Source of the DNA: Gelidibacter mesophilus DSM 14095
GTDB lineage: Bacteria > Bacteroidota > Bacteroidia > Flavobacteriales > Flavobacteriaceae
Length of the DNA stretch: 36,249 nucleotides
Direction: 5' to 3'
Assembly: GCF_000423005.1 (NCBI RefSeq)
Contig: NZ_AUHD01000020.1
Location: 1 to 36,249, forward strand
The notes below the pieces were generated by a model. The model made no database searches. It was not told the DNA's origin and saw only the letters and a program-made list of their open reading frames with translations. A program made the translations under genes and the position numbers. This document shows, piece after piece, positions 22,153 through 36,087 of this stretch; the first letter of the stretch is position 1, and each line of letters opens with the position of its first letter.

Positions 22153-22198
22153 TTTTGTTTAATAGAACCTTAGAAATGTTAAACATATTGTATCTTTA
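22153..22198 (+). promoter_or_regulatory. Shared operator/promoter element, copy 1 (before TetR)
   Basis: TTTTGTTTAA (22153-22162), 14 bases, TGTTAAACAT (22177-22186), ATTG, then the -7 element TATCTTTA (22191-22198). The outer blocks form an inverted repeat (TGTTTAATA/TGTTAAACA) centred about where the -33 element should be, and no TTTG lies at the ideal -33 place. The same blocks with the same spacing occur at 28672-28717. Control by the adjacent TetR protein is a natural guess. Confidence 0.65.
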
Positions 22199-22214
22199 CA
22201 TCTAAATTAATATC

Positions 22215-22871
22215 ATGGCTAAAAAGAAAATTATATCAGATCAAAACATCATCTCTTATTATATGGATTATGTTTTGGAGCATGGCGAGCAACCTAAATC
22301 CGTATATATATTTGCCAAGGCAAATAATTTTGAAGAATCGAAATTCTACGAACATTTTGGATCTTTTGAAGCCATAGAAAAACACATATTGAGAGCATTT
22401 CTTGAGAATACTTTAAATATTTTGAACGACAGTGCGGACTATCAATTATTTGACGCCCGGAATAAGTTACTGAGTTTTTATTTCACTTTTTTCGAAAACT
22501 TAACGGTCAACCGCAGCTATGTCCTGTTTGCTCTTGATCAATATAAAATGCGCATGAAAGGCCTGAAGGTGTTATCTGAACTTAAAAAGGGATTTACGCA
22601 TTATATTGATAGTTTGGGTATTGAAACTTTAGACATTAGAGAAGAACGCATAAATAAGTTACAGCGCCGGGCCATGGGTGAATCGGCATGGTTACAATTA
22701 TTATTGACGCTAAAGTTTTGGATGGACGACACCTCCCCTTCTTTTGAAAAAACCGATATTCTAATTGAAAAATCAGTCAATACCAGTTTTGACATCCTCA
22801 ATATTGCCCCTTTAAAAAGCGTTATTGACCTTGGAAAATTCCTTTTCAAGGAAAAAGCGCACATGAACTAA
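22215..22871 (+). CDS. TetR-family transcription regulator
   Basis: A 218-residue regulator. The N-terminal helix-turn-helix (about 10-57) has the TetR pattern, with the second and third helices near SVYIFAKANNFEESKFYEHF and an aromatic YEHFGS turn equivalent to the usual YxHFxS. The C-terminal ligand domain (about 60-215) is helical and resembles the TetR C-terminal type seen next to AarF kinases. The stop codon touches the ATG of the kinase, so the two form one operon. The promoter carries the shared element 22153-22198, suggesting autoregulation. The ligand is unknown. Confidence 0.87.
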   Translation: MAKKKIISDQNIISYYMDYVLEHGEQPKSVYIFAKANNFEESKFYEHFGSFEAIEKHILRAFLENTLNILNDSADYQLFDARNKLLSFYFTFFENLTVNRSYVLFALDQYKMRMKGLKVLSELKKGFTHYIDSLGIETLDIREERINKLQRRAMGESAWLQLLLTLKFWMDDTSPSFEKTDILIEKSVNTSFDILNIAPLKSVIDLGKFLFKEKAHMN

Positions 22872-24182
22872 ATGAAAACGATAGATAAAATTCCCACATC
22901 AAAAATACAAAGAGCTTCAAAACTCGTTTCAACAGGTGCTAAAGTAGGTGTTAATTATCTCAAGTATTATGGAGACAAATTAACCAAGACAGAAGATGAA
23001 GCACGCTCACGATTAAATGAAAATAATGCTGACGACATCTATGATAGTTTAAAAAAGCTTAAAGGCAGCGCTCTTAAAGTTGCGCAAATGTTGAGTATGG
23101 AAAAAAGCATTATGCCGCAGGCTTATGTGGAGAAATTTTCATTGGCGCAATTTTCTGTACCACCATTATCGCCACCGTTGGTACTCAAAACTTTCAAAAC
23201 CTATTTTGGAAAATTACCCAATGAACTCTATGATACTTTCAATTCCACTTCAGTAAACGCTGCAAGTATTGGACAAGTGCACATTGCAGAAAAAGACGGC
23301 AAGACATTAGCCGTAAAAATTCAATATCCTGGAGTTGCACAAAGTATCTCTTCAGATTTGGCACTTGTGAAACCTATTGCCATGAAAATGTTCAACATCA
23401 AAGGGAAAGATTCTGACAAATATTTTAAGGAGGTGGAAGAGAAACTCATTGAAGAAACAAATTACATTTTAGAAATAGCGCAAAGCAAGGAAATTGTTGC
23501 GGCCTGCTCGCACATTCCCAATCTATTGTTTCCTCAGTATTATGAAGAGCTCTCTTCAGAACGAATCATCACCATGGATTATATGGAAGGAGAACATCTT
23601 TCAGAATTTACTGCGACAAACACCAATCAAGAGGACGCCAATACCTTAGGTCAGGCGCTTTGGGACTTTTATATGTTTCAAATCCATGAGCTAAGAAAGG
23701 TTCATGCGGACCCACATCCTGGAAATTTTTTAGTGTCTAAGGATAAACATTTAATTGCGCTGGATTTTGGCTGTATGAAAATTATTCCTGAGGATTTCTA
23801 TGCACCTTATTTTGAATTGGCACAGCCCAAAAACATTTCAAACAAAGCATTTTTTATTGAGAAATTATACCAATTGGAGATTCTTCGTGAGGATGATTCG
23901 AAGGAAGAAGCCGAGTTTTTTACTGAAATGTTCCATGAATTATTAAGTCTATTCACACAACCCTTTCATGTGGAAGAATTCGATTTTTCTGATGTTGACT
24001 TTTTCGGTAAAATTACCGAATTGGGACAACGCTACTCAAAAAGCACTGAACTCCGTAAGATGAATGGCAATAGAGGTTCCAAACATTTTATCTATATGAA
24101 CAGAACATTTTTCGGGCTGTACAACCTCATGTTTGATCTAAAAGCAAAAGACATCAAGATCAACAATTTCAAAACATTATGA
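22872..24182 (+). CDS. AarF/UbiB (ABC1/ADCK)-family atypical kinase
   Basis: A 436-residue ABC1-type protein kinase-like ATPase. Family marks are the KxGQ-equivalent K69-V-A-Q72, the Ala-rich loop in NAASIGQVHIA (129-139), the VAIK-type lysine K149 (LAVKIQYPG), the catalytic HADPHPGN (278-285) and the DFG at 298-300 (LDFGCMK). The Gly of KxGQ is Ala here, seen directly; whether that is typical of this subfamily I cannot check. Relatives support ubiquinone or other isoprenoid quinone and lipid metabolism. There is no clear membrane helix. It is co-transcribed with the TetR gene and ends at the terminator 24289-24322. Confidence 0.88.
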   Translation: MKTIDKIPTSKIQRASKLVSTGAKVGVNYLKYYGDKLTKTEDEARSRLNENNADDIYDSLKKLKGSALKVAQMLSMEKSIMPQAYVEKFSLAQFSVPPLSPPLVLKTFKTYFGKLPNELYDTFNSTSVNAASIGQVHIAEKDGKTLAVKIQYPGVAQSISSDLALVKPIAMKMFNIKGKDSDKYFKEVEEKLIEETNYILEIAQSKEIVAACSHIPNLLFPQYYEELSSERIITMDYMEGEHLSEFTATNTNQEDANTLGQALWDFYMFQIHELRKVHADPHPGNFLVSKDKHLIALDFGCMKIIPEDFYAPYFELAQPKNISNKAFFIEKLYQLEILREDDSKEEAEFFTEMFHELLSLFTQPFHVEEFDFSDVDFFGKITELGQRYSKSTELRKMNGNRGSKHFIYMNRTFFGLYNLMFDLKAKDIKINNFKTL

Positions 24183-24288
24183 TGATTAAGGACATTAAAG
24201 AACGCATTTAAAATTTAATTAATCTATGGCCATTCTCAATTAGAATTGTAATAGTCTACGAGTTAATTAAATAGGCATTCAATTCTTA

Positions 24289-24322
24289 AAAAAGCTCTTT
24301 TGAACCGCTTTTAGAGTTTTTT
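24289..24322 (+). terminator. Rho-independent terminator after the TetR-AarF operon
   Basis: AAAAAGCTCT (24289-24298) pairs with AGAGTTTTTT (24313-24322) through four strong pairs, one G-T and five A-T pairs, closing a 14-base loop and ending in six T. It lies 107 bases after the AarF stop and 47 bases before the kinase start. Confidence 0.65.
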
Positions 24323-24355
24323 CCAATTTTATATTGATAGCTAGCTTATATTAGA

Positions 24356-24363
24356 TATCTTTA
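24356..24363 (+). promoter_or_regulatory. -7 promoter element for the PAS kinase, possibly leaderless transcript
   Basis: TATCTTTA differs from TAnnTTTG only in the last base. It ends 5 bases before the TTG start at 24369. With a usual distance of 4-7 bases to the transcript start, the mRNA would begin at or next to the start codon. Confidence 0.5.
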
Positions 24364-24368
24364 CAGCA

Positions 24369-27300
24369 TTGAAACCTACCAAATTACTATTTAATTTGAT
24401 CAATTCTAAGCCCCAAACTACAGAATTTTCACTAGTTGATTCTGCAATTTTCGATTTATACAATTCAACCATTTTTGATGGTGTTTGGTATTCCAAAAAA
24501 TCACAGCCTCGAAAAATTATCATTAGTAAAAACTTCAAAGTGTTGTTGGGCTACACTCCCGAACATGAAGTTTATTGGGATACAATCCTTCATCCAGACG
24601 ACAGAAGTAAATTTATAAAACATTTATCTGCTTATAACGATAAGGGCGAAATCGGGATTCATGACGATTTAAGAATGATTCATAAATCTGGAGAAATTCT
24701 ATGGATGCAATGTCAGTTTTATTCCAAATCTAATCTTGAACAAAAACATCAATTTATTTTTGTTGCATTTAAGGATATCTCTATAAAAAAGAATGCAGAA
24801 TTAGAGTTACTGGATCGTCATAAGAGTACCCATGAAATTTTATCTCACAGCTCAATAGGCACATGGCAAAGGAATTTAATTACCGGAAAGTCAGTTTGCG
24901 ATGAGAGTTTGGCTCATATCATTGGTTATTCAGTTGAGGAACTTAATAGGTTCACTGTTGATGATTGGCATAGTCTTACACATCCTGACGATGTTAAAAA
25001 GTCACGACAATTCATAGAAGAACATATCGCGACTAAATCACCATGTTTTAATGGTGAAGGTAGGATGAAGCATAGAAACGGGAATTGGATTTGGGTTGCA
25101 ACCATAGGAAAAGTTAGTCATTATACTAGAAATAATGAACCTCAGACCCTAGAAGGTATTCTTTACGAAATTACCGATACCAAAAACAGCGAACTACAAT
25201 TACAAAAATATAAAGACCTTCTTGAAGAAGTCAACAAAGTTGCAGAAATTGGTGTTTGGGAAATTCATTTAGATAGCAACAAAGTTTACTGGAGTGCAGA
25301 AATTAAAAAAATGTTGGGTGTTTCTTCAGATTTCGAGCCATCAATTGAAGAGGCCGTGAGCTATTTTAGAGAGGGAGAAAGTCGCGAAAAAATCATTGAA
25401 TCAGTTCAAAATGCTATTGAAAAGGGACAAAATTACGATATAGAAGTAGAAGCAGTTCTCAAAAACAATAAATATATTTGGACCAGAGCCATTGGAGTTT
25501 CAGAATATTATGAAGGAAAATGCACGCGTTTATTTGGATTTTTACAAAACATTCATTGCAAAACAATAGCATCTAAAAAACTTGCATTTAAGGAAGAACT
25601 TTTTCATAGTACTTTCTCACATGCACCAGTGGGTATGGCCATCATAGATGTTAAAGGAAATATCATACAGGTCAATAAAAATTTATATGAAATTCTTGGA
25701 TACTCTAAAAAGGAGCTTTTAAATAGCAATTTTAATCGCTTTTCACATTTTGAGGACAAAAGTATATCAAATAGTTATATTAGAGAGGTTTTAGACGGTA
25801 AACGCGAAAGCTTTAAAGTGGACAAGCGCTATATTCATAAGAAGGGCTCCATTATTTGGACCCAGATATCCGTTTCTGCCGTTAAAAACGAAAGTGGTGA
25901 AATCATCCACTTTGTCGTCCAAATACAAGACATTACAGATCGTAAAAAAAATGAACTGCTATTAACCAATTATCAGGATTTATTGGAGCGTTCCAATTAT
26001 GTGGCCAAAATTGGTTCATGGGAAATTAACATTCACGATCATACTGTCACATGGAGTCCGTCTTTGCGTAAAATCTTGAAAACTCGGGACAATCTCGTTC
26101 CTAATTTTAACGATTCTATAGAATATTTCGCTGGAAACACACCACAAAAGGATGTTTTAAAATCTGTCTTTAATAAAGCTTTAAAGGAAGGCGCAAATTT
26201 TGATATCGAGATTCTCGTTTACCCTGACGGTAGAAAAAAACAGAAATGGATAAGAATGATAGGCGTTTCTGAGTTCTCAGATGGTCAGTGCAAACGCTTA
26301 TATGGTCTTATCCAGGATATTGATGACATAAAAAAAGTGCAGCTAGCTCTTGCGGCTAAAGAAGAGCAATGGCGAACCACTTTTAACCATGCCAAGGCAG
26401 GAATGGCATTGATTAATTTTGAGGGGATGGCCGATAGTGTCAATCAAAGTTTATGTGATCTGTTTGGTTACAGTATGAAGGAAATGGAACATATAAATAT
26501 CAAAAGTATCTCATTAAGCGAAGATCTAGAACTTCATATTAATTTAATGGAGAATTTGATAAACGGAAAAGCGCAAAATTTTAACGACGATTTACGATTC
26601 TTACATAAAAATGGCCATACTATTTGGGCTAATGTTTCGGTTTCAGCCGTTAAAAATGATTATGGGAAGTTCACGCATATGGTGGCGCAATTGGTCGATA
26701 TCACGGAATCAAAGACCAACCAAATCCTTTTAAATAAATATAAAGATAGTTTAGAACGCTCAAATACAATTGCAAAGATTGGATCATGGGAGTTGGATCC
26801 AGAAACGAAACACTGTTATTGGAGCGTCAATCTAGGTCGATTACTAGGAAGTAGAGATACCACCTCACTTTCTTTCAGTTATTCAATAATGAACTATGTG
26901 CCTAAAAAAAATCAAGAATATCTTACCGCCTTTATTGAAGATGCTCTTTTAAATGGCACTAACTTCGATTTAGAAATTCAATTAAAAACCGAAACAGGGT
27001 TGAGATGGATGCGTATCATAGGGATTTCTGAATTTGAAAATGGCTCATGCAAATTGTTACATGGATTGGTTCAGGATATTCACGAATTCAAAACGGCGCA
27101 GCTAGAGATTCTACTTAGGGAAGAGGAATTTAGACAAACCTTTTGGCATGCACCAATTGGGATGGGGATGATGGATTTAACCGGGAAGGTCGTAAAGGTC
27201 AACCCGAGTATGTGCGAAACATTTGGGTATACGGAGCAAGAATTAATACATATTGAAAAAAATGTTATTTCACATCCGGATGATATTGAAGCCACAAAAA

Positions 27301-28175
27301 CTTTCATACAACAAATTTTGTCTGGTGAGCGAGAAAGTTTTCAGCAAGAAAAGCGTTATTTTCACAAAAACAAAAGTCTAATTTGGGCAATTTTATCCAT
27401 ATCAGCTGTAAAAAATGACCTTGGAGAAACCACGCATTTTGTCACGCAAGTCAACGATATTACGGATAAAAAACTTATGACCGAAAGTCTAAAAGAACAT
27501 AATAATAGACTTCAAAATTATGCGCATATTGTGTCGCACAATCTCCGATCTCATACCGGAAACTTGGCCATGCTATTAGAATTAAGTGAAATAAACAATA
27601 AAAAAGGTTGCGATAATGATTTATTTGAGCACATTAAGTCAGCATCAAATAACATGAACGAAACGGTGCAGCACTTAAGTGAGATTGTAGAAATCCACAA
27701 CCTTCTGAAAGAAACTCTTGTGCCACACAATTTGAGAAAACGGGTTGATAAATCAATTGCAAGTGTCAGAGCTACATTAAATGAAATTAATGGCGAAGTG
27801 ACTTTTAATGTTGATGAAGATTATCTGGTCTATGCCGTTTCGTCCTATATGGACAGTATTTTGCACAATCTGATTACCAACGCCATAAAATACAAATCAC
27901 CCTACCGACTTTTAAAGATTAAGATGAAGGCCGGAAGAAAAAATGGAATGACATTTTTAAGTATTGCTGACAATGGTCTGGGAATTGATCTGGAGAAACA
28001 TGGCTCAAAGATTTTTGGTATGTACAAGACCTTCCATGAGCACAAAAAAGCTAAAGGTATTGGTTTGTTTATCAGTAAAAATCAAATAGAAGCCATGGGA
28101 GGCAGCATTGAAGTTGAAAGCAAACCGAATATTGGCAGTACCTTCACTATATATTTTAAGGATGAAGAAAATTAA
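24369..28175 (+). CDS. Sensor histidine kinase with eight PAS domains
   Basis: A 1268-residue soluble sensor kinase with no membrane helix. PAS/PAC units start near residues 28, 147, 281, 408, 535, 664, 791 and 917. A dimerisation helix carries the phosphoacceptor H1057 (IVSHNLRSH). The ATPase domain has N1167/N1171 (N-box), DNGLGI at 1201 and GIGLFI at 1230. The PAS units from 281 alternate two types, one with a KIGSWE-like start and one with a HAPxGM-like start, as three copies of a pair about 255 residues long. The start is TTG, because an in-frame TAG lies at 24342-24344 and the next ATG falls within PAS1. The last 14 bases overlap the response regulator gene. Confidence 0.88.
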   Translation: MKPTKLLFNLINSKPQTTEFSLVDSAIFDLYNSTIFDGVWYSKKSQPRKIIISKNFKVLLGYTPEHEVYWDTILHPDDRSKFIKHLSAYNDKGEIGIHDDLRMIHKSGEILWMQCQFYSKSNLEQKHQFIFVAFKDISIKKNAELELLDRHKSTHEILSHSSIGTWQRNLITGKSVCDESLAHIIGYSVEELNRFTVDDWHSLTHPDDVKKSRQFIEEHIATKSPCFNGEGRMKHRNGNWIWVATIGKVSHYTRNNEPQTLEGILYEITDTKNSELQLQKYKDLLEEVNKVAEIGVWEIHLDSNKVYWSAEIKKMLGVSSDFEPSIEEAVSYFREGESREKIIESVQNAIEKGQNYDIEVEAVLKNNKYIWTRAIGVSEYYEGKCTRLFGFLQNIHCKTIASKKLAFKEELFHSTFSHAPVGMAIIDVKGNIIQVNKNLYEILGYSKKELLNSNFNRFSHFEDKSISNSYIREVLDGKRESFKVDKRYIHKKGSIIWTQISVSAVKNESGEIIHFVVQIQDITDRKKNELLLTNYQDLLERSNYVAKIGSWEINIHDHTVTWSPSLRKILKTRDNLVPNFNDSIEYFAGNTPQKDVLKSVFNKALKEGANFDIEILVYPDGRKKQKWIRMIGVSEFSDGQCKRLYGLIQDIDDIKKVQLALAAKEEQWRTTFNHAKAGMALINFEGMADSVNQSLCDLFGYSMKEMEHINIKSISLSEDLELHINLMENLINGKAQNFNDDLRFLHKNGHTIWANVSVSAVKNDYGKFTHMVAQLVDITESKTNQILLNKYKDSLERSNTIAKIGSWELDPETKHCYWSVNLGRLLGSRDTTSLSFSYSIMNYVPKKNQEYLTAFIEDALLNGTNFDLEIQLKTETGLRWMRIIGISEFENGSCKLLHGLVQDIHEFKTAQLEILLREEEFRQTFWHAPIGMGMMDLTGKVVKVNPSMCETFGYTEQELIHIEKNVISHPDDIEATKTFIQQILSGERESFQQEKRYFHKNKSLIWAILSISAVKNDLGETTHFVTQVNDITDKKLMTESLKEHNNRLQNYAHIVSHNLRSHTGNLAMLLELSEINNKKGCDNDLFEHIKSASNNMNETVQHLSEIVEIHNLLKETLVPHNLRKRVDKSIASVRATLNEINGEVTFNVDEDYLVYAVSSYMDSILHNLITNAIKYKSPYRLLKIKMKAGRKNGMTFLSIADNGLGIDLEKHGSKIFGMYKTFHEHKKAKGIGLFISKNQIEAMGGSIEVESKPNIGSTFTIYFKDEEN
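25209..27488 (+). repeat. Three diverged tandem copies of a two-PAS unit inside the kinase gene
   Basis: Units begin at 25209, 25971 and 26739 (residues 281, 535 and 791), 762 and 768 bases apart. Each starts Y(K/Q)D(L/S)LE..N..AKIGSWE or close to it, passes through (T/F)RLFGF or KRLYGL, and then a second PAS ending SAVKN(D/E).G and DIT. Protein identity is moderate, so the duplication is old or selected to diverge. The third unit's end is approximate. Confidence 0.75.
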
Positions 28176-28560
28176 TACAATTTGCATTATAGACGATGAT
28201 CCCATTTTTAGATTTGGAACAAAAAAAATGATGGAAACCGTTCAGGCTTCGCTGAATTTTTTGGTCTATAAAAATGGAAAAGATGCCTTTGATAATTTAT
28301 TGCCAAATTTAAAGTTAAACACCAACCTGCCTGATGTTATTTTGTTGGACCTCAATATGCCAATCATGGATGGATGGCAATTTTTGGATGAATTTCTAAA
28401 AGTTCCTGATTCAGAAAAAATTCCAATATATATAGTCAGCTCATCAGTAGATAGTCGGGATATTGAAAGAGCAAAAACTTATAAAATGGTCGGACAATAT
28501 ATAATTAAGCCATTTTCTATCTCCAAAGTTGAAGAGCTTTTGGAAGGGTTAAAAAAATAG
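28162..28560 (+). CDS. Single-domain response regulator, partner of the PAS kinase
   Basis: A 132-residue CheY-like receiver with no output domain. The acidic pocket is IDDDP (D11-D13), the phosphoacceptor is D63 in LLDLNMPIMDG, the switch Ser is in IVSSSVD (about 92-98), and the conserved K116 is in YIIKPFS. I chose the ATG at 28162, preceded by a purine-rich AAGG; an upstream in-frame ATG at 28108 would add 18 residues that are not receiver-like. The ATG overlaps the kinase 3' end by 14 bases, so the pair is translationally coupled and surely cognate. Output must pass to another protein. Confidence 0.9.
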   Translation: MKKINTICIIDDDPIFRFGTKKMMETVQASLNFLVYKNGKDAFDNLLPNLKLNTNLPDVILLDLNMPIMDGWQFLDEFLKVPDSEKIPIYIVSSSVDSRDIERAKTYKMVGQYIIKPFSISKVEELLEGLKK

Positions 28561-28671
28561 AAATTCATTCCCAACCTCCTATTGTCATTCATCCAATAAA
28601 AAATATATTTCGTTTCTTCAGATTTCATTTATATATTAAATTTTGAGCATTTTTAAATCAAATTAGATTAT

Positions 28672-28717
28672 TTTTGTTTAACATAAGCTCTGTTTTGTTA
28701 AACATTTCGTATCTTCA
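28672..28717 (+). promoter_or_regulatory. Shared operator/promoter element, copy 2 (before the SDR-DUF2867 gene)
   Basis: TTTTGTTTAA (28672-28681), 14 bases, TGTTAAACAT (28696-28705), TTCG, then TATCTTCA (28710-28717). Both 10-base blocks, the 14-base gap, the G before the -7 element and TATCTT are identical to copy 1 at 22153. Here the inverted repeat is perfect over 9 bp (TGTTTAACA at 28675-28683, TGTTAAACA at 28696-28704). The -7 element lies 18 bases before the TTG start. Confidence 0.7.
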
Positions 28718-28735: not shown

Positions 28736-30163
28736 TTGAAAATTCTCGTTACAGGTTCTACCGGCTATATAGGAAAAAGACTGATTCCTATATTGATCAA
28801 TGAAGGTCATGATGTGATATGTGCTTTGCGTGATAAATATAGGGTTGACAAAACCTATCTTGAAGATGAGCATATTTCTGTTGTTGAAGCTGATTTTCTA
28901 AAACCAGAAACGCTTCAAAATATTCCAAAAGAGATTGACGTTGCCTATTATTTGATACATTCCATGTCCAATACCTCAAAGGATTTTGAACAATTGGAAG
29001 CCAAATGTGCCGATAATTTTAGAACGTACTTTCAAACCACAAACGTAAAACAAGTCATATATTTGAGTGGCATCACCAATGATGCCTATCTGTCCAAACA
29101 TCTGCAATCCCGAAAGAATGTCGAAGAGTTATTGGAATCAGAGCACTATGGCTTAACCATTTTTAAGGCAGGAATTATTGTGGGTTCTGGAAGCTCTTCC
29201 TTCGAAATTATTCGTGACTTGGTCGAGAAATTGCCAGTGATGATTGCCCCTAAATGGCTGAACACCAAAACCCAACCTTTAGCAGTCAGGGATGTACTTT
29301 CGTTTTTATCAAAAGCGAAAGGCCGAGAAGAAGTCTACAATAAAAGCTATGACGTTTTTGGTCCTGAAGTTTTAACGTATAAGCAGATGCTGCTCCAGTT
29401 TGCGGACATTCGAGAATTAAAACGTTATATCTTGACTGTGCCAGTTATGACTCCAAAACTGTCCTCTTATTGGCTTTATTTTGTGACCTCCACATCTTAT
29501 AAGCTCGCTACTTCCCTAGTGGAAAGTATGGGCGTTGAGATTATAGGGAATAAAAGTAATATTAACGAACTGCTCGATGTGCATCCCATTAGTTATAGAG
29601 CGGCTGTAGGGTTGGCTTTCGAAAAAATTGAACAAAACAGTATCATTTCAAGCTGGAAAGATTCGATGGTAAGCAGCGGACGTCTAAAAAACAGTTTTCA
29701 TAAATATATAAATGTCCCTACATACGGCTGCTTTACGGATTACAAAGAGCGTAAAGTTGAAGATATGGATCGCACCATCAACCGGATTTGGTCTATTGGC
29801 GGATCAACAGGTTGGTATTATGGCACTTATTTATGGAAGATACGAGGGTATCTGGATAAGCTTTTTGGAGGTATTGGTCTACGACGCGGCAGAACCCATG
29901 TTTCCGAAATTAATGCCGGCGATGCTTTGGATTTTTGGCGGGTAATCTTTAGTGATAAAAAAGAACGAAAGCTATTGTTATATGCAGAAATGAAACTTCC
30001 TGGCGAAGCATGGTTGGAATTTAAAATAGAAGATGGCCTGCTCAAACAAACCGCAACATTTAGACCACGTGGATTGGCGGGACGCTTGTATTGGTATAGC
30101 GTATTGCCGTTCCACTGGTTTATTTTTAATGGAATGATCAATAAGTTGGTGGAAGTGGAATAA
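28736..30163 (+). CDS. SDR/NAD(P)-binding protein with C-terminal DUF2867
   Basis: A 475-residue protein. The N-terminal atypical SDR domain starts KILVTGSTGYIGKRLIPIL (GxTGxIG at 7-13) and runs to about residue 230, with a VIYLSG segment near 107 but no obvious Tyr-Lys pair. The DUF2867 domain follows (about 315-475: IWSIGGSTGWYYG, then LRRGRTHVSEINAGDALDFW). The start is TTG, just after the shared element. Orthologues are often found near photolyases in Bacteroidota. The substrate is unknown; it may act on a lipid or quinone. Confidence 0.82.
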   Translation: MKILVTGSTGYIGKRLIPILINEGHDVICALRDKYRVDKTYLEDEHISVVEADFLKPETLQNIPKEIDVAYYLIHSMSNTSKDFEQLEAKCADNFRTYFQTTNVKQVIYLSGITNDAYLSKHLQSRKNVEELLESEHYGLTIFKAGIIVGSGSSSFEIIRDLVEKLPVMIAPKWLNTKTQPLAVRDVLSFLSKAKGREEVYNKSYDVFGPEVLTYKQMLLQFADIRELKRYILTVPVMTPKLSSYWLYFVTSTSYKLATSLVESMGVEIIGNKSNINELLDVHPISYRAAVGLAFEKIEQNSIISSWKDSMVSSGRLKNSFHKYINVPTYGCFTDYKERKVEDMDRTINRIWSIGGSTGWYYGTYLWKIRGYLDKLFGGIGLRRGRTHVSEINAGDALDFWRVIFSDKKERKLLLYAEMKLPGEAWLEFKIEDGLLKQTATFRPRGLAGRLYWYSVLPFHWFIFNGMINKLVEVE

Positions 30164-30492: not shown

Positions 30493-30570
30493 AAACAAAC
30501 ATAGATATGTTAATGTTTGTTTAATGTTTTGGGTAAAAATATAAACATTTGTTTAGATTACCTATATTTA
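30493..30570 (+). promoter_or_regulatory. Cluster of TGTTT/AAACA half-sites before the unknown gene, weak third copy of the shared element
   Basis: AAACAAACAT (30493-30502), 10 bases, ATGTTTGTTT (30513-30522) is a perfect 10-bp inverted repeat. Overlapping it, GTTTGTTTAA (30515-30524), 14 bases, ATATAAACAT (30539-30548) repeats the layout of the shared element, with 9 of 10 and 7 of 10 bases matching. A further TTTGTTTAG follows, and the -7 element TATATTTA is at 30563-30570. Unlike copies 1 and 2, the gap to the -7 element is 14 rather than 4 bases. Confidence 0.45.
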
Positions 30571-30574
30571 TACC

Positions 30575-31000
30575 ATGATTTTGGACACCACATATACCAA
30601 TAAAAAGCACGATAAACTTATTAATGATTTAGTGGGAAAATCCTATAGTTTGATTCAAACCATAAAAATGAAAGGGATTGGTTCTAAACGGATGATCATT
30701 GATGCGGTCAGTCCCAATTTAGAACACTATCTGAACACTGTTTCTGCAGTCAATTACGCCAATTTAGAATTACGACCTTCGGGGTTGCTGATTAGAATTA
30801 ATAAGGGGTTACAAACGTTTACATGGCCTATTCCATTTTATCAATTAGTGATTTACAAGAATGATGGCAGTAGTATCCATGCACAAGGCCTTTTTATTCA
30901 CTTTAGAAGAAATACGACCTTCAAAGAAAACAAAGCGTTTTTTGCCAAGCTTCTGGACGAAAAAATCAAATATGATGCCCAATATAATTTTCAACCATGA
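30575..31000 (+). CDS. Protein of unknown function, 141 residues
   Basis: A soluble alpha/beta protein without signal peptide or membrane helix, and no motif I recognise. Two mixed segments are visible: an N-terminal helical part (HDKLINDLVGKSYSLIQTI) and a beta-rich middle (LELRPSGLLIRINKGLQTFTWPIPFYQLVIYK) suggestive of a PH-like barrel, ending in a helix (ENKAFFAKLLDEKIKY). The ATG is 4 bases after a -7-like TATATTTA, so the transcript may be leaderless. It sits between the SDR-DUF2867 gene and folE, with a rich set of repeats upstream. The role is unknown; the stress or light link is context only. Confidence 0.75.
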   Translation: MILDTTYTNKKHDKLINDLVGKSYSLIQTIKMKGIGSKRMIIDAVSPNLEHYLNTVSAVNYANLELRPSGLLIRINKGLQTFTWPIPFYQLVIYKNDGSSIHAQGLFIHFRRNTTFKENKAFFAKLLDEKIKYDAQYNFQP

Positions 31001-31172: not shown

Positions 31173-31871
31173 ATGTTTAAAGAAAAACAAATAAAATCAG
31201 CCCCAACTGAACACCATGAAAAAGGACTCAGTGCAATTGAACTTGGAGAAGACCATTTCTTTTCCGGATTGGAAACACCTTTAAAATCGGATGCTTTTGT
31301 ATTAACTGACCAAGAAAAGAAGCTTCGCATTGCTGGTTTATTTGAAGAAATAATGGATGTCATGGGTTTAGATTTAGCTGATGATTCATTGAAAGGCACT
31401 CCAGAGCGTGTCGCAAAAATGTATATTGAGGAGAATTTTTCCGGTTTGAATCCTGCTAATAAACCAAAAATCACTTTGTTTGATAATAAATATCAATACA
31501 ATCAGATGTTGGTTGAAAAAAACATGACACTTTACTCAAATTGTGAACATCATTTTGTTCCCATCATTGGAAAAGCCCATGTGGCCTATATCTCATCCGG
31601 CAAGGTGATAGGGTTATCAAAATTAAATAGAATTGTGCAGTATTACGCCAATCGTCCGCAGGTTCAGGAACGATTGACCAACCAAATTGCAGAAGAATTA
31701 AAACATATTTTACAAACAGAAGATGTGGCCGTAATTATTGATGCCAAGCATTTATGCGTTTCCTCTCGAGGAATTAAAGATGAATGCTCTGCAACGGTTA
31801 CCTCCTATTACGGTGGAAAATTTGGCACACCAGAGAAAATAGCCGAGTTACAAAATTATTTAAAAGATTAA
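31173..31871 (+). CDS. folE: GTP cyclohydrolase I
   Basis: A 232-residue enzyme converting GTP to 7,8-dihydroneopterin triphosphate, the first step of folate and pterin synthesis. The zinc ligands are C124 and H127 in SNCEHHFVP and C195 in KHLCVSSRG; GLSKLNRIVQYYANRPQVQERL (147-168) is the conserved core. Residues 1-45 form an extension beyond the usual domain and look unstructured. Its position in a photolyase group suggests extra pterin or folate supply, possibly for a methenyl-tetrahydrofolate antenna; that is inference. A second folE elsewhere in the genome would support this. It is 5 bases from the next gene, so they are co-transcribed. Confidence 0.94.
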   Translation: MFKEKQIKSAPTEHHEKGLSAIELGEDHFFSGLETPLKSDAFVLTDQEKKLRIAGLFEEIMDVMGLDLADDSLKGTPERVAKMYIEENFSGLNPANKPKITLFDNKYQYNQMLVEKNMTLYSNCEHHFVPIIGKAHVAYISSGKVIGLSKLNRIVQYYANRPQVQERLTNQIAEELKHILQTEDVAVIIDAKHLCVSSRGIKDECSATVTSYYGGKFGTPEKIAELQNYLKD

Positions 31872-32230: not shown

Positions 32231-32913
32231 ATGAAAACTATAATTATTGTTGGAGGAAGTAAGGGCATTGGCAAAGCCATTGCTCTTACATTACTTCCTA
32301 ACCACTCGGTTATCAATATCAGCAGAACACCTCCTGAATACGCACACGATAATCTTACACATTATTCCTGTGATATTTTAGCAGATGCATTACCGACGAT
32401 TGAAAAAGCAGACGGACTTGTCTATTGTCCTGGAAGCTTCAATTTAAAACCTATTTCCAGATTAAGTTTGGACGATTTTAGAGCCGATTTCGAATCAACG
32501 TCATCGGTGCCGTTAAAAGCATTCAAACTTACTTGGACGTTCTAAAAAAAGGACATCAACCTGCCATCCTTTTATTTAGTACAGTAGCTACAAAGTTAGG
32601 AATGCCTTTCCACGCCAGTGTGGCAGCTTCAAAATCGGCAGTGGAAGGGCTGGTGAAATCGTTGGGTGCTGAAATGACAACCACCTTGCGTATCAATGCG
32701 ATAGCTCCTACCGTTACAGATACTGATCTCGCTTCTAAATTGCTTAGAAACGAAAAAATGATTGCCAGCATAACTGAGCGTCATCCTCTTAAAAAGTTTT
32801 TAAAACCAGAAGAAGTGGCGGATATGGCGGAATTCTTATTGTCTGAAAAATCAGCTTCCATTTCAGGACAGATCTTTAAATTGGACTATGGCCTTGTCAG
32901 CTTTAAAATGTAA
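32231..32913 (+). pseudogene. SDR-family oxidoreductase broken by a one-base frameshift
   Basis: The first frame (32231-32545) has the SDR start IIIVGGSKGIGKAIAL and stops at TAA after residue 104. The second frame (to 32913) has LLFSTVATKLGMPFHASVAA, SKSAVEGLVKSLGAE and the C-terminal SGQIFKLDYG. Adding one base after GAA at 32492-32494 gives EINVIGAVKSIQTYLDVLKK, which restores the expected NVIGA helix and joins both halves into about 227 residues. The deletion (or a sequencing error) is thus placed near 32494. The catalytic Tyr of YxxxK is Val here (VAASK), so even the intact protein would be atypical. It lies upstream of glutathione peroxidase (58 bases). Confidence 0.85.
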
Positions 32914-32971: not shown

Positions 32972-33451
32972 ATGGATTTAAAAAGCTTTTATGATTTAAA
33001 GATAAATGATCTAAAAGAGGATCCTATTGATCTCAGTAATTTTAAAGGAAAACATATCCTGATTGTCAACGTCGCTTCAAAATGTGGGTTTGCACCTCAG
33101 TATAAGGAGCTACAGACACTCTATGAGAATCACAAGAAACATCTTCAAGTTATTGGTGTACCCTGCAATCAGTTTGGAGGACAAGAACCAGGAGACGCAG
33201 CTGAGATAGAAGAATTTTGCCAAGTGAATTACGGCGTTGATTTTCTCATGACCGAAAAAATTGATGTGAAAGGCAAAAACCAACATCCGCTTTTTGAATG
33301 GCTCACTGAGGAAGCATTAAACGGTGTGTCCAGTTCCAAAGTTAAATGGAATTTTCAAAAGTACCTTATCGATGATCAGGGCAAACTCATTGATTATTAT
33401 TATTCTATTACTAGTCCTACAAGCAAGAAAATCTTAAAGTATCTAAAATAA
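32972..33451 (+). CDS. Glutathione peroxidase family protein (thiol peroxidase)
   Basis: A 159-residue peroxidase reducing hydrogen and lipid peroxides, often with thioredoxin rather than glutathione in bacteria. The catalytic Cys is C38 in NVASKCGFAPQY. The second signature is GVPCNQFGGQEPG (62-74), holding the catalytic Gln and the probable resolving Cys, and the Trp motif is KWNFQKYLI near residue 130. There is no signal peptide, so it is cytoplasmic. It is part of the photoprotection group. A bacillithiol-making organism (see bshB1) would use other thiols as reductant; this is inference. Confidence 0.93.
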   Translation: MDLKSFYDLKINDLKEDPIDLSNFKGKHILIVNVASKCGFAPQYKELQTLYENHKKHLQVIGVPCNQFGGQEPGDAAEIEEFCQVNYGVDFLMTEKIDVKGKNQHPLFEWLTEEALNGVSSSKVKWNFQKYLIDDQGKLIDYYYSITSPTSKKILKYLK

Positions 33452-33691: not shown

Positions 33692-34153
33692 ATGAAATTT
33701 CTTAAATTCTTTTTTATTTTTCTCGTTTTCAATTTAGGGGCCTTAGGCCTGGGCGTTTTATTAATGGGCAATGGACCAACCAGCGATTGGTACACTTCTA
33801 TGAACCAAGCCCCATGGACGCCACCTAATTGGATTTTTGGAACTGCTTGGTCCTTCATCATGCTGTGTTTTTCTTTTTACATGACCTTTCTTTATCTTAA
33901 GCACCCAACAAAGAAGGTCTTGACGCTTTTTATCATACAATTCATCTTAAATGTCGCATGGAATTATGTTTTTTTTAATCAGCATTTAATTGCTATCGGC
34001 TTGGGAACAATAATTGCATTAACCATAATTATTACTGCGTTTTTGGTCACATATTTAAAAGTAATAAAAGGCTATACCTTATTCATTCTTCCATATTTTA
34101 TTTGGATTTGCATCGCGACCTCACTCAATTTATACATTCTAATTTATAACTAA
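33692..34153 (+). CDS. Tryptophan-rich sensory protein (TspO/MBR family)
   Basis: A 153-residue membrane protein with five helices. The signature WYTSMNQAPWTPPNWIFG (about 31-48) and the Asn-rich LNVAWNYVFFNQH (about 87-99) are typical. TspO binds porphyrins and in bacteria has been tied to light, tetrapyrrole and oxidative-stress responses. The neighbours (glutathione peroxidase, SRPBCC protein, photolyase) repeat an association known in Bacteroidota. It is followed after 28 bases by the SRPBCC gene. Length and helix count are normal. Confidence 0.93.
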   Translation: MKFLKFFFIFLVFNLGALGLGVLLMGNGPTSDWYTSMNQAPWTPPNWIFGTAWSFIMLCFSFYMTFLYLKHPTKKVLTLFIIQFILNVAWNYVFFNQHLIAIGLGTIIALTIIITAFLVTYLKVIKGYTLFILPYFIWICIATSLNLYILIYN

Positions 34154-34181
34154 ACAGCTACCTACTTTCGTGGGCTCTATG

Positions 34182-34664
34182 ATGAAAATATACACGCTTC
34201 ATAAAAAGCAAAACTTGCCAATAAGTCTAGAAACGGCATGGAACTTTCTTTCAGATCCCAAAAATCTGAAGACAATTACTCCAGATTACATGGGCTTCAA
34301 TATTATAGCCGGTGCTGATCGTCCGATGTTTGCGGGACAAATCATTCAATACATTGTGACGCCTGTTTTTGGAATCAAAACGAAATGGGTCACTGAAATT
34401 ACCCATAGTGTCACCAACCATTATTTTGTGGATGAGCAGCGCTTTGGGCCGTATGCCTTATGGCATCATAAACATTTTATAAAAGCAATTGACGGTGGCG
34501 TGGAAATGGAAGATATTATCGATTATAAAGTTCCTTTTGGAATTTTAGGACAATTGATGCATCCGTTGCTTGTAAAACCCAAATTGGAAGAAATATTCGA
34601 TTTTAGAACCAAGAAATTAGAAGCCCTTTTTGGAGTTTATAACGAGAAAATTCCGGCAGGATAG
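34182..34664 (+). CDS. SRPBCC-family (START-like) ligand-binding protein
   Basis: A 160-residue protein of the SRPBCC/Bet v1-like fold, which forms a hydrophobic pocket. The N-terminal strand and helix (TAWNFLSDPKNLKTITP) and DRPMFAGQIIQYIV fit the cyclase/dehydrase type, and the C-terminal helix (PKLEEIFDFRTKKLEALF) closes the pocket. Upstream in-frame ATGs at 34170 and 34179 exist; I chose 34182 as the closest to the conserved part. It lies between tspO and the photolyase gene, a pairing common in Bacteroidota. The ligand is unknown; a carotenoid, flavin or lipid is possible. Confidence 0.85.
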   Translation: MKIYTLHKKQNLPISLETAWNFLSDPKNLKTITPDYMGFNIIAGADRPMFAGQIIQYIVTPVFGIKTKWVTEITHSVTNHYFVDEQRFGPYALWHHKHFIKAIDGGVEMEDIIDYKVPFGILGQLMHPLLVKPKLEEIFDFRTKKLEALFGVYNEKIPAG

Positions 34665-34782: not shown

Positions 34783-36087
34783 ATGAAACAACCCCTTACC
34801 ATATTCTGGTTCCGTCGTGATTTGAGATTGGACGATAATATCGGATTTCACCAAGCCTTAAGAGCAGAGCATCCCGTACTGCCTCTCTTTATTTTCGATA
34901 CAGAAATTTTGGATCATCTTCCAGAGGACGATGCAAGAGTGAGCTTTATTTTTGAAACACTTCAGAACATGCGGCAGGTTTTACAAGATCAACATGGCAG
35001 TAGTTTGGCAATATACCATGGCAAACCATTAGACATCTACAAGCAACTTATTGCCGATTATGAGATTGCTGAAGTTTATACCAACCATGATTATGAACCT
35101 TATGCTCGAGAGCGGGATTGTAAGATCAAAGCGTTTCTTTCAGAAAAAAATATCCCTTTCAAAACCTTTAAGGATCACCTTATATTTGAAAAGGACGAAG
35201 TTGTGAAAAAAGATGGCGACCCCTATTTAGTATATACACCATATATGAAGGTTTGGAAAGCTAAATTTAAAACTATTGATTTGGAAATTTTTTATACGAA
35301 TTCCTATCTCGATAATTTGGCTAAAAACACACGCTTACCAAACTTGAGCTTATCAGATATCGGTTTTAATAAATCGTCGCAAAAAATAGCCAATTATGAT
35401 GTGACCCCTACGCTCATCCAGGACTACGAATACACTCGAAATTTTCCGGCAAAGGATAGTACATCCCGGTTAGGGCCCCACTTGCGCTTTGGAACGGTGA
35501 GCGTCCGTAAAATAATTAAAAAGGCCGTTGCTGAAAAGAATGAAGTATTTTGGCAGGAACTTATCTGGCGCGAATTTTTTGCGCAAATTTTATGGCATTT
35601 TCCAAATACCGTAAGTGAAAGTTTTAAGCCGAAATATGACCGCATTGAATGGCGCAATAACGAAGCGGAATTCAAACTTTGGTGTCAAGGACAAACTGGC
35701 TACCCTTTAGTGGATGCTGGAATGCGACAACTTAATGAAACCGGTTTTATGCACAATCGGGTGCGAATGTTGGTGGGCAGTTTTTTATGCAAACACCTTT
35801 TAATAGATTGGCGATGGGGAGAGGCCTATTTTGCCGAAAAGCTGCACGATTATGAGATGGCTAGCAATGTTGGCAATTGGCAATGGGTTGCGGGAACTGG
35901 CGTGGATGCTGCACCCTATTTCAGGATTTTTAATCCAACAACACAGATTGAAAAATTTGACAAGGATTTAAAGTACATCAAGAAATGGGTGCCGGAATTT
36001 CAAGAATTGACCTACGCCGAGAAAATGGTGGATCACAAAGAAGCCAGGGAACGCTGTCTGAAGGTCTATAAAAACGCACTGGATTAA
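34783..36087 (+). CDS. phr: Deoxyribodipyrimidine photolyase (cryptochrome/photolyase family, class I)
   Basis: A 434-residue flavoprotein that splits pyrimidine dimers using blue light. The N-terminal antenna domain begins FWFRRDLRLDDN (about 9-20). The FAD domain holds STSRLGPHLRFGTVS (about 227-241), WQELIWREF (about 258-266) and the FAD-binding GNWQWVAGTGVDAAPYFRIF (366-385), whose Asp faces the flavin N5. Length is slightly short of the E. coli enzyme (472), usual for class I in this phylum. A DASH or other cryptochrome is less likely, given the intact repair-type motifs. The IS3 element begins only 11 bases after its stop. Confidence 0.92.
   Translation: MKQPLTIFWFRRDLRLDDNIGFHQALRAEHPVLPLFIFDTEILDHLPEDDARVSFIFETLQNMRQVLQDQHGSSLAIYHGKPLDIYKQLIADYEIAEVYTNHDYEPYARERDCKIKAFLSEKNIPFKTFKDHLIFEKDEVVKKDGDPYLVYTPYMKVWKAKFKTIDLEIFYTNSYLDNLAKNTRLPNLSLSDIGFNKSSQKIANYDVTPTLIQDYEYTRNFPAKDSTSRLGPHLRFGTVSVRKIIKKAVAEKNEVFWQELIWREFFAQILWHFPNTVSESFKPKYDRIEWRNNEAEFKLWCQGQTGYPLVDAGMRQLNETGFMHNRVRMLVGSFLCKHLLIDWRWGEAYFAEKLHDYEMASNVGNWQWVAGTGVDAAPYFRIFNPTTQIEKFDKDLKYIKKWVPEFQELTYAEKMVDHKEARERCLKVYKNALD

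Follow-up and report, generated by a model that had tools for sequence, protein, structure and literature searches.

The window analysed here, a 36,249-nt stretch that makes up one whole contig (C19) of the 4.43-Mb genome of Gelidibacter mesophilus, carries copies of a promoter element of the family TGTTTAA-N16-TTAAACA, with a rigid spacer. With a probability of roughly 80%, this element can be read as the operator of an AdoCbl-dependent, light-released MerR repressor of the CarH/LitR type, encoded elsewhere in the genome (contig C9, before crtI). A sequence-only reading of the same DNA had named a neighbouring TetR protein as the obvious candidate binder, and had kept a B12- or light-sensing MerR regulator encoded elsewhere as its alternative; it is this alternative that is now best supported, since the motif follows CarH in 60 genomes. 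The computed evidence comprises the motif, its recurrent neighbours, its dependence on CarH across genomes, a joint change of recognition helix and operator, and the CarH fold and cofactor motifs of the candidate protein.

A pattern scan of the window gave two exact occurrences of TTTTGTTTAA-N14-TGTTAAACAT, at 22153-22186 and 28672-28705, each followed, three bases past the block pair, by G and TATCTT (22190-22196 and 28709-28715). At up to three mismatches, 0.03 occurrences are expected per shuffled window, and two copies were obtained in 0 of 100 shuffles, so the earlier claim of two sites with the same spacing down to TATCTT stands. The 14 spacer bases, said to differ fully, are in fact identical at 6 of 14 positions, which is about chance level. 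Operator 1 (TGTTTAA-N14-TGTTAAACA, 22156..22185, exact match; this and all further features lie on the forward strand) precedes the TetR and AarF genes, and the sequence places a putative -7 element, TATCTTT, 5 bp past its right arm (22191..22197). Operator 2 (28675..28704, exact match) precedes the SDR-DUF2867 gene, with a -7-like element, TATCTTC, again 5 bp past the right arm (28710..28716). A third site, absent from the earlier reading, is seen with one mismatch at 30518..30547, before a 141-aa gene upstream of folE; its putative -7 element, TATATTT, lies 15 bp past the right arm (30563..30569).

Downstream of operator 1, a TetR-fold protein (TetR_C_23; 22215..22871), which Pfam, a fold model and helix analysis mark as probably regulated by operator 1 rather than regulating it, is followed by an AarF/ABC1 (UbiB-like) kinase family protein (22872..24182, profile match). 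Neighbourhood comparison places the multi-PAS histidine kinase (1268 aa) and response regulator at 24369..28560 as context, not as regulon core. Profile matches further identify an NAD(P)-binding SDR fused to DUF2867 (28736..30163), GTP cyclohydrolase I (FolE; 31173..31871), glutathione peroxidase (32972..33451), TspO/MBR (33692..34153) and a member of the DNA photolyase/cryptochrome family (34783..36087). The 141-aa protein (30575..31000) is without a Pfam match, and an SRPBCC-like protein (34170..34664) has a weak Polyketide_cyc match, below its cut-off. Reading of the open reading frames splits another SDR gene (32231..32913) into two overlapping frames of 104 and 126 aa, through either a frameshift or a sequencing error. 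Right after the photolyase gene, at the contig end (36164-36249), the apparent start of a transposase orfA, which we take to be of the IS3 type, is recognisable by eye.

In 14 of the 16 genomes measured, SDR-DUF2867 begins within 716 bp of the end of AarF, four pairs nearly touching and ten being separated by a gap of 622-716 bp, in which one small gene could fit. In the window, AarF and the SDR gene are kept apart by the PAS kinase and response regulator, and the detached SDR gene has its own perfect operator. Where AarF lies in the upstream 1.5 kb, SDR-DUF2867 has a site of its own in 0 of 15 loci (at most two of 14 mismatches, 320 bp). SDR-DUF2867 was rejected as a conserved owner of the site, which was found in just 3 of 30 loci (G000, G019 and G027; at most two of 14 mismatches, within 320 bp), the 30 having been read from among 39 genomes in which a match was present. 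In the case of the 141-aa gene (30 loci read out of 35 genomes; at most two mismatches of 14), a site precedes all 16 homologues with at least 50% identity, the own one included, and none of the 14 below 42% identity.

Genome-wide, TTGTTTAA-N16-TTAAACA has five exact copies in G. mesophilus, against none for the reversed control pattern. The first lies on contig C9, between the CarH-type MerR gene and crtI, whose product scores above NCBIfam's curated cut-off; the second and third are those before TetR-AarF and SDR-DUF2867. The fourth (C4:411009) is 48 bp before a two-domain fasciclin gene, overlapping a divergent gene start, and the fifth (C11:4732) lies between icd and a TonB-dependent receptor. 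Beside a one-mismatch place (C12:31460), no neighbour was recognised, nine inspected of the 12 places with two mismatches gave no convincing member, and the genome yielded no rhodopsin match. That the sites form one regulon, as already proposed from the window, is supported by the recurrence, beside the motif in other Bacteroidota, of the families found at these five exact copies.

The candidate regulator is the 299-aa product of the MerR gene located directly before crtI on contig C9. It has an N-terminal MerR winged helix (PF13411, MerR_1, 4e-14) and a C-terminal cobalamin-binding domain (PF02607, B12-binding_2, 4.7e-12), without a match to PF02310. In its genome, PF13411 finds this protein and one other MerR of 111 aa, and PF02310 finds methylmalonyl-CoA mutase, IcmF-like and MetH-like proteins. 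Phmmer matches it to 3whp and to CarH 5c8d, and both the W-x9-EH capping motif and the lower-ligand ExHxxG are present in it and paired in the 3whp alignment; the nearest structure to a model of the relative L059 is CarH 5c8e. Pattern searches of 92 CarH-type loci gave W-x9-EH in 90 and ExHxx[GA] in 81, Ala being allowed for the last Gly. The protein is filed here as CarH-type and not as a named equivalog, because the relative L085 scores 70 bits against the NCBIfam CarH equivalog NF052513, whose cut-off is 400. As the methylmalonyl-CoA mutase of the genome is above NCBIfam's cut-off, AdoCbl is probably in use in this host. In 23 of 30 loci, though not in the own genome, the distance from the first base of TGTTTAA to the carH ATG is 23 bp.

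The distribution of the motif separates CarH from TetR. At up to one mismatch, it was counted 131 times in 60 genomes of the family, the reversed control giving 9; since both strands were scanned, near-palindromic places may count twice. It is present in 36 of the 39 genomes with a close CarH homologue versus 1 of the 21 others (p=8e-12), the single exception being G025, which encodes a CarH that is less closely related but has the same residue in the helix. Of the genomes chosen for an exact search, all 10 in which CarH is a close homologue have exact canonical palindromes, and none of the 9 without CarH does; G025 (four places) and G007 have them too, and there the more distant CarH retains Ile. 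By this genome comparison, the operator does not co-occur with the TetR gene: among CarH-bearing genomes, the motif is present in 30 of 32 with TetR and is kept in 6 of 7 without it (p=0.46), and it is absent from 5 of the 6 genomes that have TetR without a close CarH. Sites directly before TetR (at most two of 16 mismatches; partial TetR of G147 left out) were found in 69 of 86 genomes with CarH versus 3 of 8 others (p=0.016); the CarH-bearing genomes lacking one number 17 of 86 at this threshold and 7 of 86 at up to three mismatches. G059, G014 and G040 keep TetR at 58-60% identity with no site before it. Sites where no CarH was found occur before TetR in G079 (81% complete) and before rhodopsin in G147 (73%) and G055 (86%), and 9 of 30 crtI genes beside CarH have no site at up to two of 14 mismatches.

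It is thus very unlikely that both sites are bound by the TetR protein encoded at 22215 and that this protein regulates its own expression. One site does lie directly before tetR, the classic autoregulatory place, and the structure model shows a TetR fold with a helix-turn-helix. The genome counts nevertheless speak against TetR as the binder, as does the occurrence of the motif before crtI and, in relatives, before rhodopsin genes. The protein itself argues in the same direction: across 93 homologues (one row with an in-frame stop being removed), no conserved DNA-reading helix was found, residues 38-49 having a mean net charge of -2.0 and variable exposed positions, and Pfam TetR_N is not listed for it up to E 10, a search in which HMMER filters drop most weak matches. 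In the CarH-type MerR proteins, by comparison, the recognition helix is basic (+2.6) and hardly varies (0.41 bits, 74 rows). In Foldseek, the TetR model groups with TetR regulators, and human COQ9 (6awl) is its match at rank 23 (E 3.2e-3). The COQ9-COQ8 pair acts in ubiquinone synthesis, and a TetR-fold protein beside an ABC1/UbiB-like kinase is common to both arrangements. A COQ9-like role without DNA binding may be considered as a lead rather than a finding, as the COQ9 match stands among many TetR regulators.

A joint change of recognition helix and operator further connects the CarH-type proteins with the motif. In eight of them (K-type), Lys replaces Ile in HT[IL]R-X-WE. At their own loci, scored at up to one mismatch of 15, the variant TGTCTAA-N16-TTAGACA was found in 5, the canonical form in 0 and neither in 3, and the only exact site among the five is that of G032. 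The own loci of the other CarH types (n=66, same threshold) have the canonical form only in 45, the variant only in 0, a hybrid in 2 and neither in 19; 18 named loci that had been chosen by motif were excluded from this comparison. Genome-wide, an exact palindrome of the variant type is present in 4 of 8 K-type genomes (G032, G038, G066 and G135, the last having both CarH types) versus 0 of 21 others. The variant is absent from the whole genomes of G098 and G028 at up to one mismatch, and G028 is the one K-type genome of eight with an exact canonical palindrome, in one copy. Before TetR, G038 shows the change in both arms and G066 in one. In the tree, the K-type proteins form one clade, the sister of which is the Ile-bearing protein of G025. 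The Ile-to-Lys switch arose a single time in evolution, which limits the weight of this comparison, but the operator change tends towards symmetry and goes with the protein.

An exact scan of genome contigs gave at least 120 motif loci, which are to be taken as a sample. Among the 80 locus titles listed, 79 are Bacteroidota (names judged by eye) and one is a Clostridia MAG. The sequence-only reading had named, as support to be sought in a genome scan, hits mainly before photolyase, carotenoid, TspO, folE and TetR-AarF genes, and this holds in part: 80 of the 120 listed loci have a photoprotection or light-related relative (tblastn, E<=1e-8; queries photolyase, FolE, CarH, CrtI, rhodopsin, Blh, TetR, 141-aa, SDR-DUF2867, TspO and SRPBCC) and 40 have none. 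Nor is a connection with light obvious for some of the recurrent neighbours (fasciclin, TonB receptor, GLPGLI). At the 120 listed loci, the genes that start no more than 350 bp from the motif are those of ECF sigma factors (26), TetR (18), CrtI (7), 141-aa (6), DUF2452 (6), FolE (4), SRPBCC (4) and rhodopsin (3), together with fasciclin (12 and 7 for two overlapping queries); 19 of these loci lack a recurrent neighbour. Fasciclin genes recur beside the motif outside the own genome, and in L005 (the fifth exact copy above), L031, L044, L073 and L101 it precedes TonB-dependent receptors of a single family, for which a link to light is not evident.

The frequency of ECF sigma genes (adjacent in 26 of 120 listed loci), their place at carotenoid clusters and a rigid 16-bp spacer resembling a -35/-10 spacing could suggest that the motif is itself an ECF sigma factor promoter. 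This is extremely unlikely, as the arms are inverted copies, separate -7 elements are found at differing offsets, and the symmetric base change goes together with a residue of the MerR protein. A second full operator is, moreover, present in 15 of 25 ECF-type promoters, mostly 34-35 bp downstream, giving four arms. Such tandem full operators about 35 bp apart are seen before ECF sigma genes in L112, L114, L081, L107 and others.

Rhodopsin matches were found in 30 of 149 genomes, and 28 loci were examined, the matches of G104 and G045 being left out and G067 and G079 being scored as no site. The 22 loci in CarH-bearing genomes have a site at up to one mismatch of 14 in 13 cases, at two mismatches in 3 and none in 6; the six in genomes without CarH have a site in 2 and none in 4. 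In L051 and L056, the exact motif lies between the rhodopsin gene and blh (beta-carotene dioxygenase).

Promoter architecture bears on how the CarH-type protein would act. Of the arm pairs before TetR (at most one mismatch of 14), 80 have a spacer of 16 bp, and the remaining spacer lengths between 8 and 25 account for 15 in total. In promoters of the TetR type, TAnnTTT starts 5 bp past the right arm in 63 of 79 with a site. Of the crtI promoters, 21 of 30 have a site; there TAnnTTTG adjoins the right arm on its inner side, with the ATG directly after. The operator position relative to -7 thus differs by about 20 bp between the two, a shift more in keeping with a repressor than with an activator of the MerR type, and an operator ending 5 bp before the -7 element (TetR) or overlapping it (crtI) fits blocking. 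DNA binding by the CarH-type protein, with repression rather than activation, is what we infer from these sequences; AdoCbl dependence, dark repression and release by light are carried over by analogy with CarH. In the dark, the AdoCbl-bound protein would sit on the two inverted arms overlapping or abutting the promoter and would block RNA polymerase; in the light, AdoCbl would be cleaved, the oligomer would dissociate and the regulon would be turned on. This regulon would comprise the crt genes, TetR-AarF, SDR-DUF2867, the 141-aa/folE/photolyase group and the fasciclin protein and, in relatives, often rhodopsin.

It is improbable that the CarH-type MerR protein instead activates from the site, or that it perceives light by way of a partner, in the style of class II LitR and LOV, rather than through AdoCbl. 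The right arm adjoins the -7 element in TetR-type promoters, and class II LitR of Pseudomonas governs a similar gene set (accessible text of PMC9758184). Against this stand the 20-bp difference in operator placement and the retention, in the counts given above, of W-x9-EH and ExHxx[GA], signatures said to define CarH homologues in the accessible text of PMC8156234.

The proposed CarH-type repressor resembles CarH of Thermus thermophilus, Bacillus megaterium and Myxococcus xanthus (class I LitR) in its MerR helix-turn-helix and B12-binding domain, W-x9-EH and ExHxxG, as well as in the neighbouring carotenoid genes, the promoter-overlapping operator and a TnnACA core. It differs in its dispersed regulon and in the low NCBIfam score of L085. 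Published CarH operators are, in the portions available, tandem direct 11-bp repeats, nAnnTnnACAn (PMC8156234); this layout was not found here, the arms being inverted, 22 bp apart centre to centre, and sharing only TnnACA. The inverted arms are new relative to the direct repeats so described. That MerR-type repressors put such genes under light control is known from CarH (PMC8156234) and Pseudomonas LitR (PMC9758184); in the accessible text of the two sources, no inverted operator of this kind is described. In the class II LitR regulon of Pseudomonas (PplR/PmlR), photolyase, FolE, SDR and cryptochrome genes are, as proposed here, under a MerR-type light repressor (PMC9758184, available portion). 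The Pseudomonas sites are T(G/A)TACA/TGTACA and PmlR2 is under a LOV partner, while in the present family the cobalamin motifs are mostly kept.

In the accessible part of the open-access literature, neither this operator nor any CarH regulon of Bacteroidota was found described. Within the accessible text of a 2013 Dokdonia study, rhodopsin expression in strain PRO95 is called constitutive, which counts against light control, and proteorhodopsin regulation in these flavobacteria is said to need further work (PMC3587595). A 2020 study, likewise available in part and likewise a point against, describes light-induced carotenoids in Chryseobacterium lacus, a species in which its authors detected neither car nor lit genes (PMC7064467).

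A wider picture, to which we give even odds when its parts are taken jointly, would be that of a B12-sensed light regulon spanning the phylum Bacteroidota, with an operator grammar of TGTTTAAC-N14-GTTAAACA, single or tandem, also driving proteorhodopsin in many marine flavobacteria; in one clade, a single Ile-to-Lys helix change would have rewritten the two operator arms at some loci, and the 'TetR' would be a COQ9-like, non-DNA-binding partner of AarF. Knowledge of the operator makes the regulon predictable from sequence, and the Ile/Lys helix change might serve in light-controlled parts as a switch of specificity by one residue. With a named operator and a named candidate regulator, the questions of how proteorhodopsin and carotenoids are regulated in flavobacteria become directly testable.
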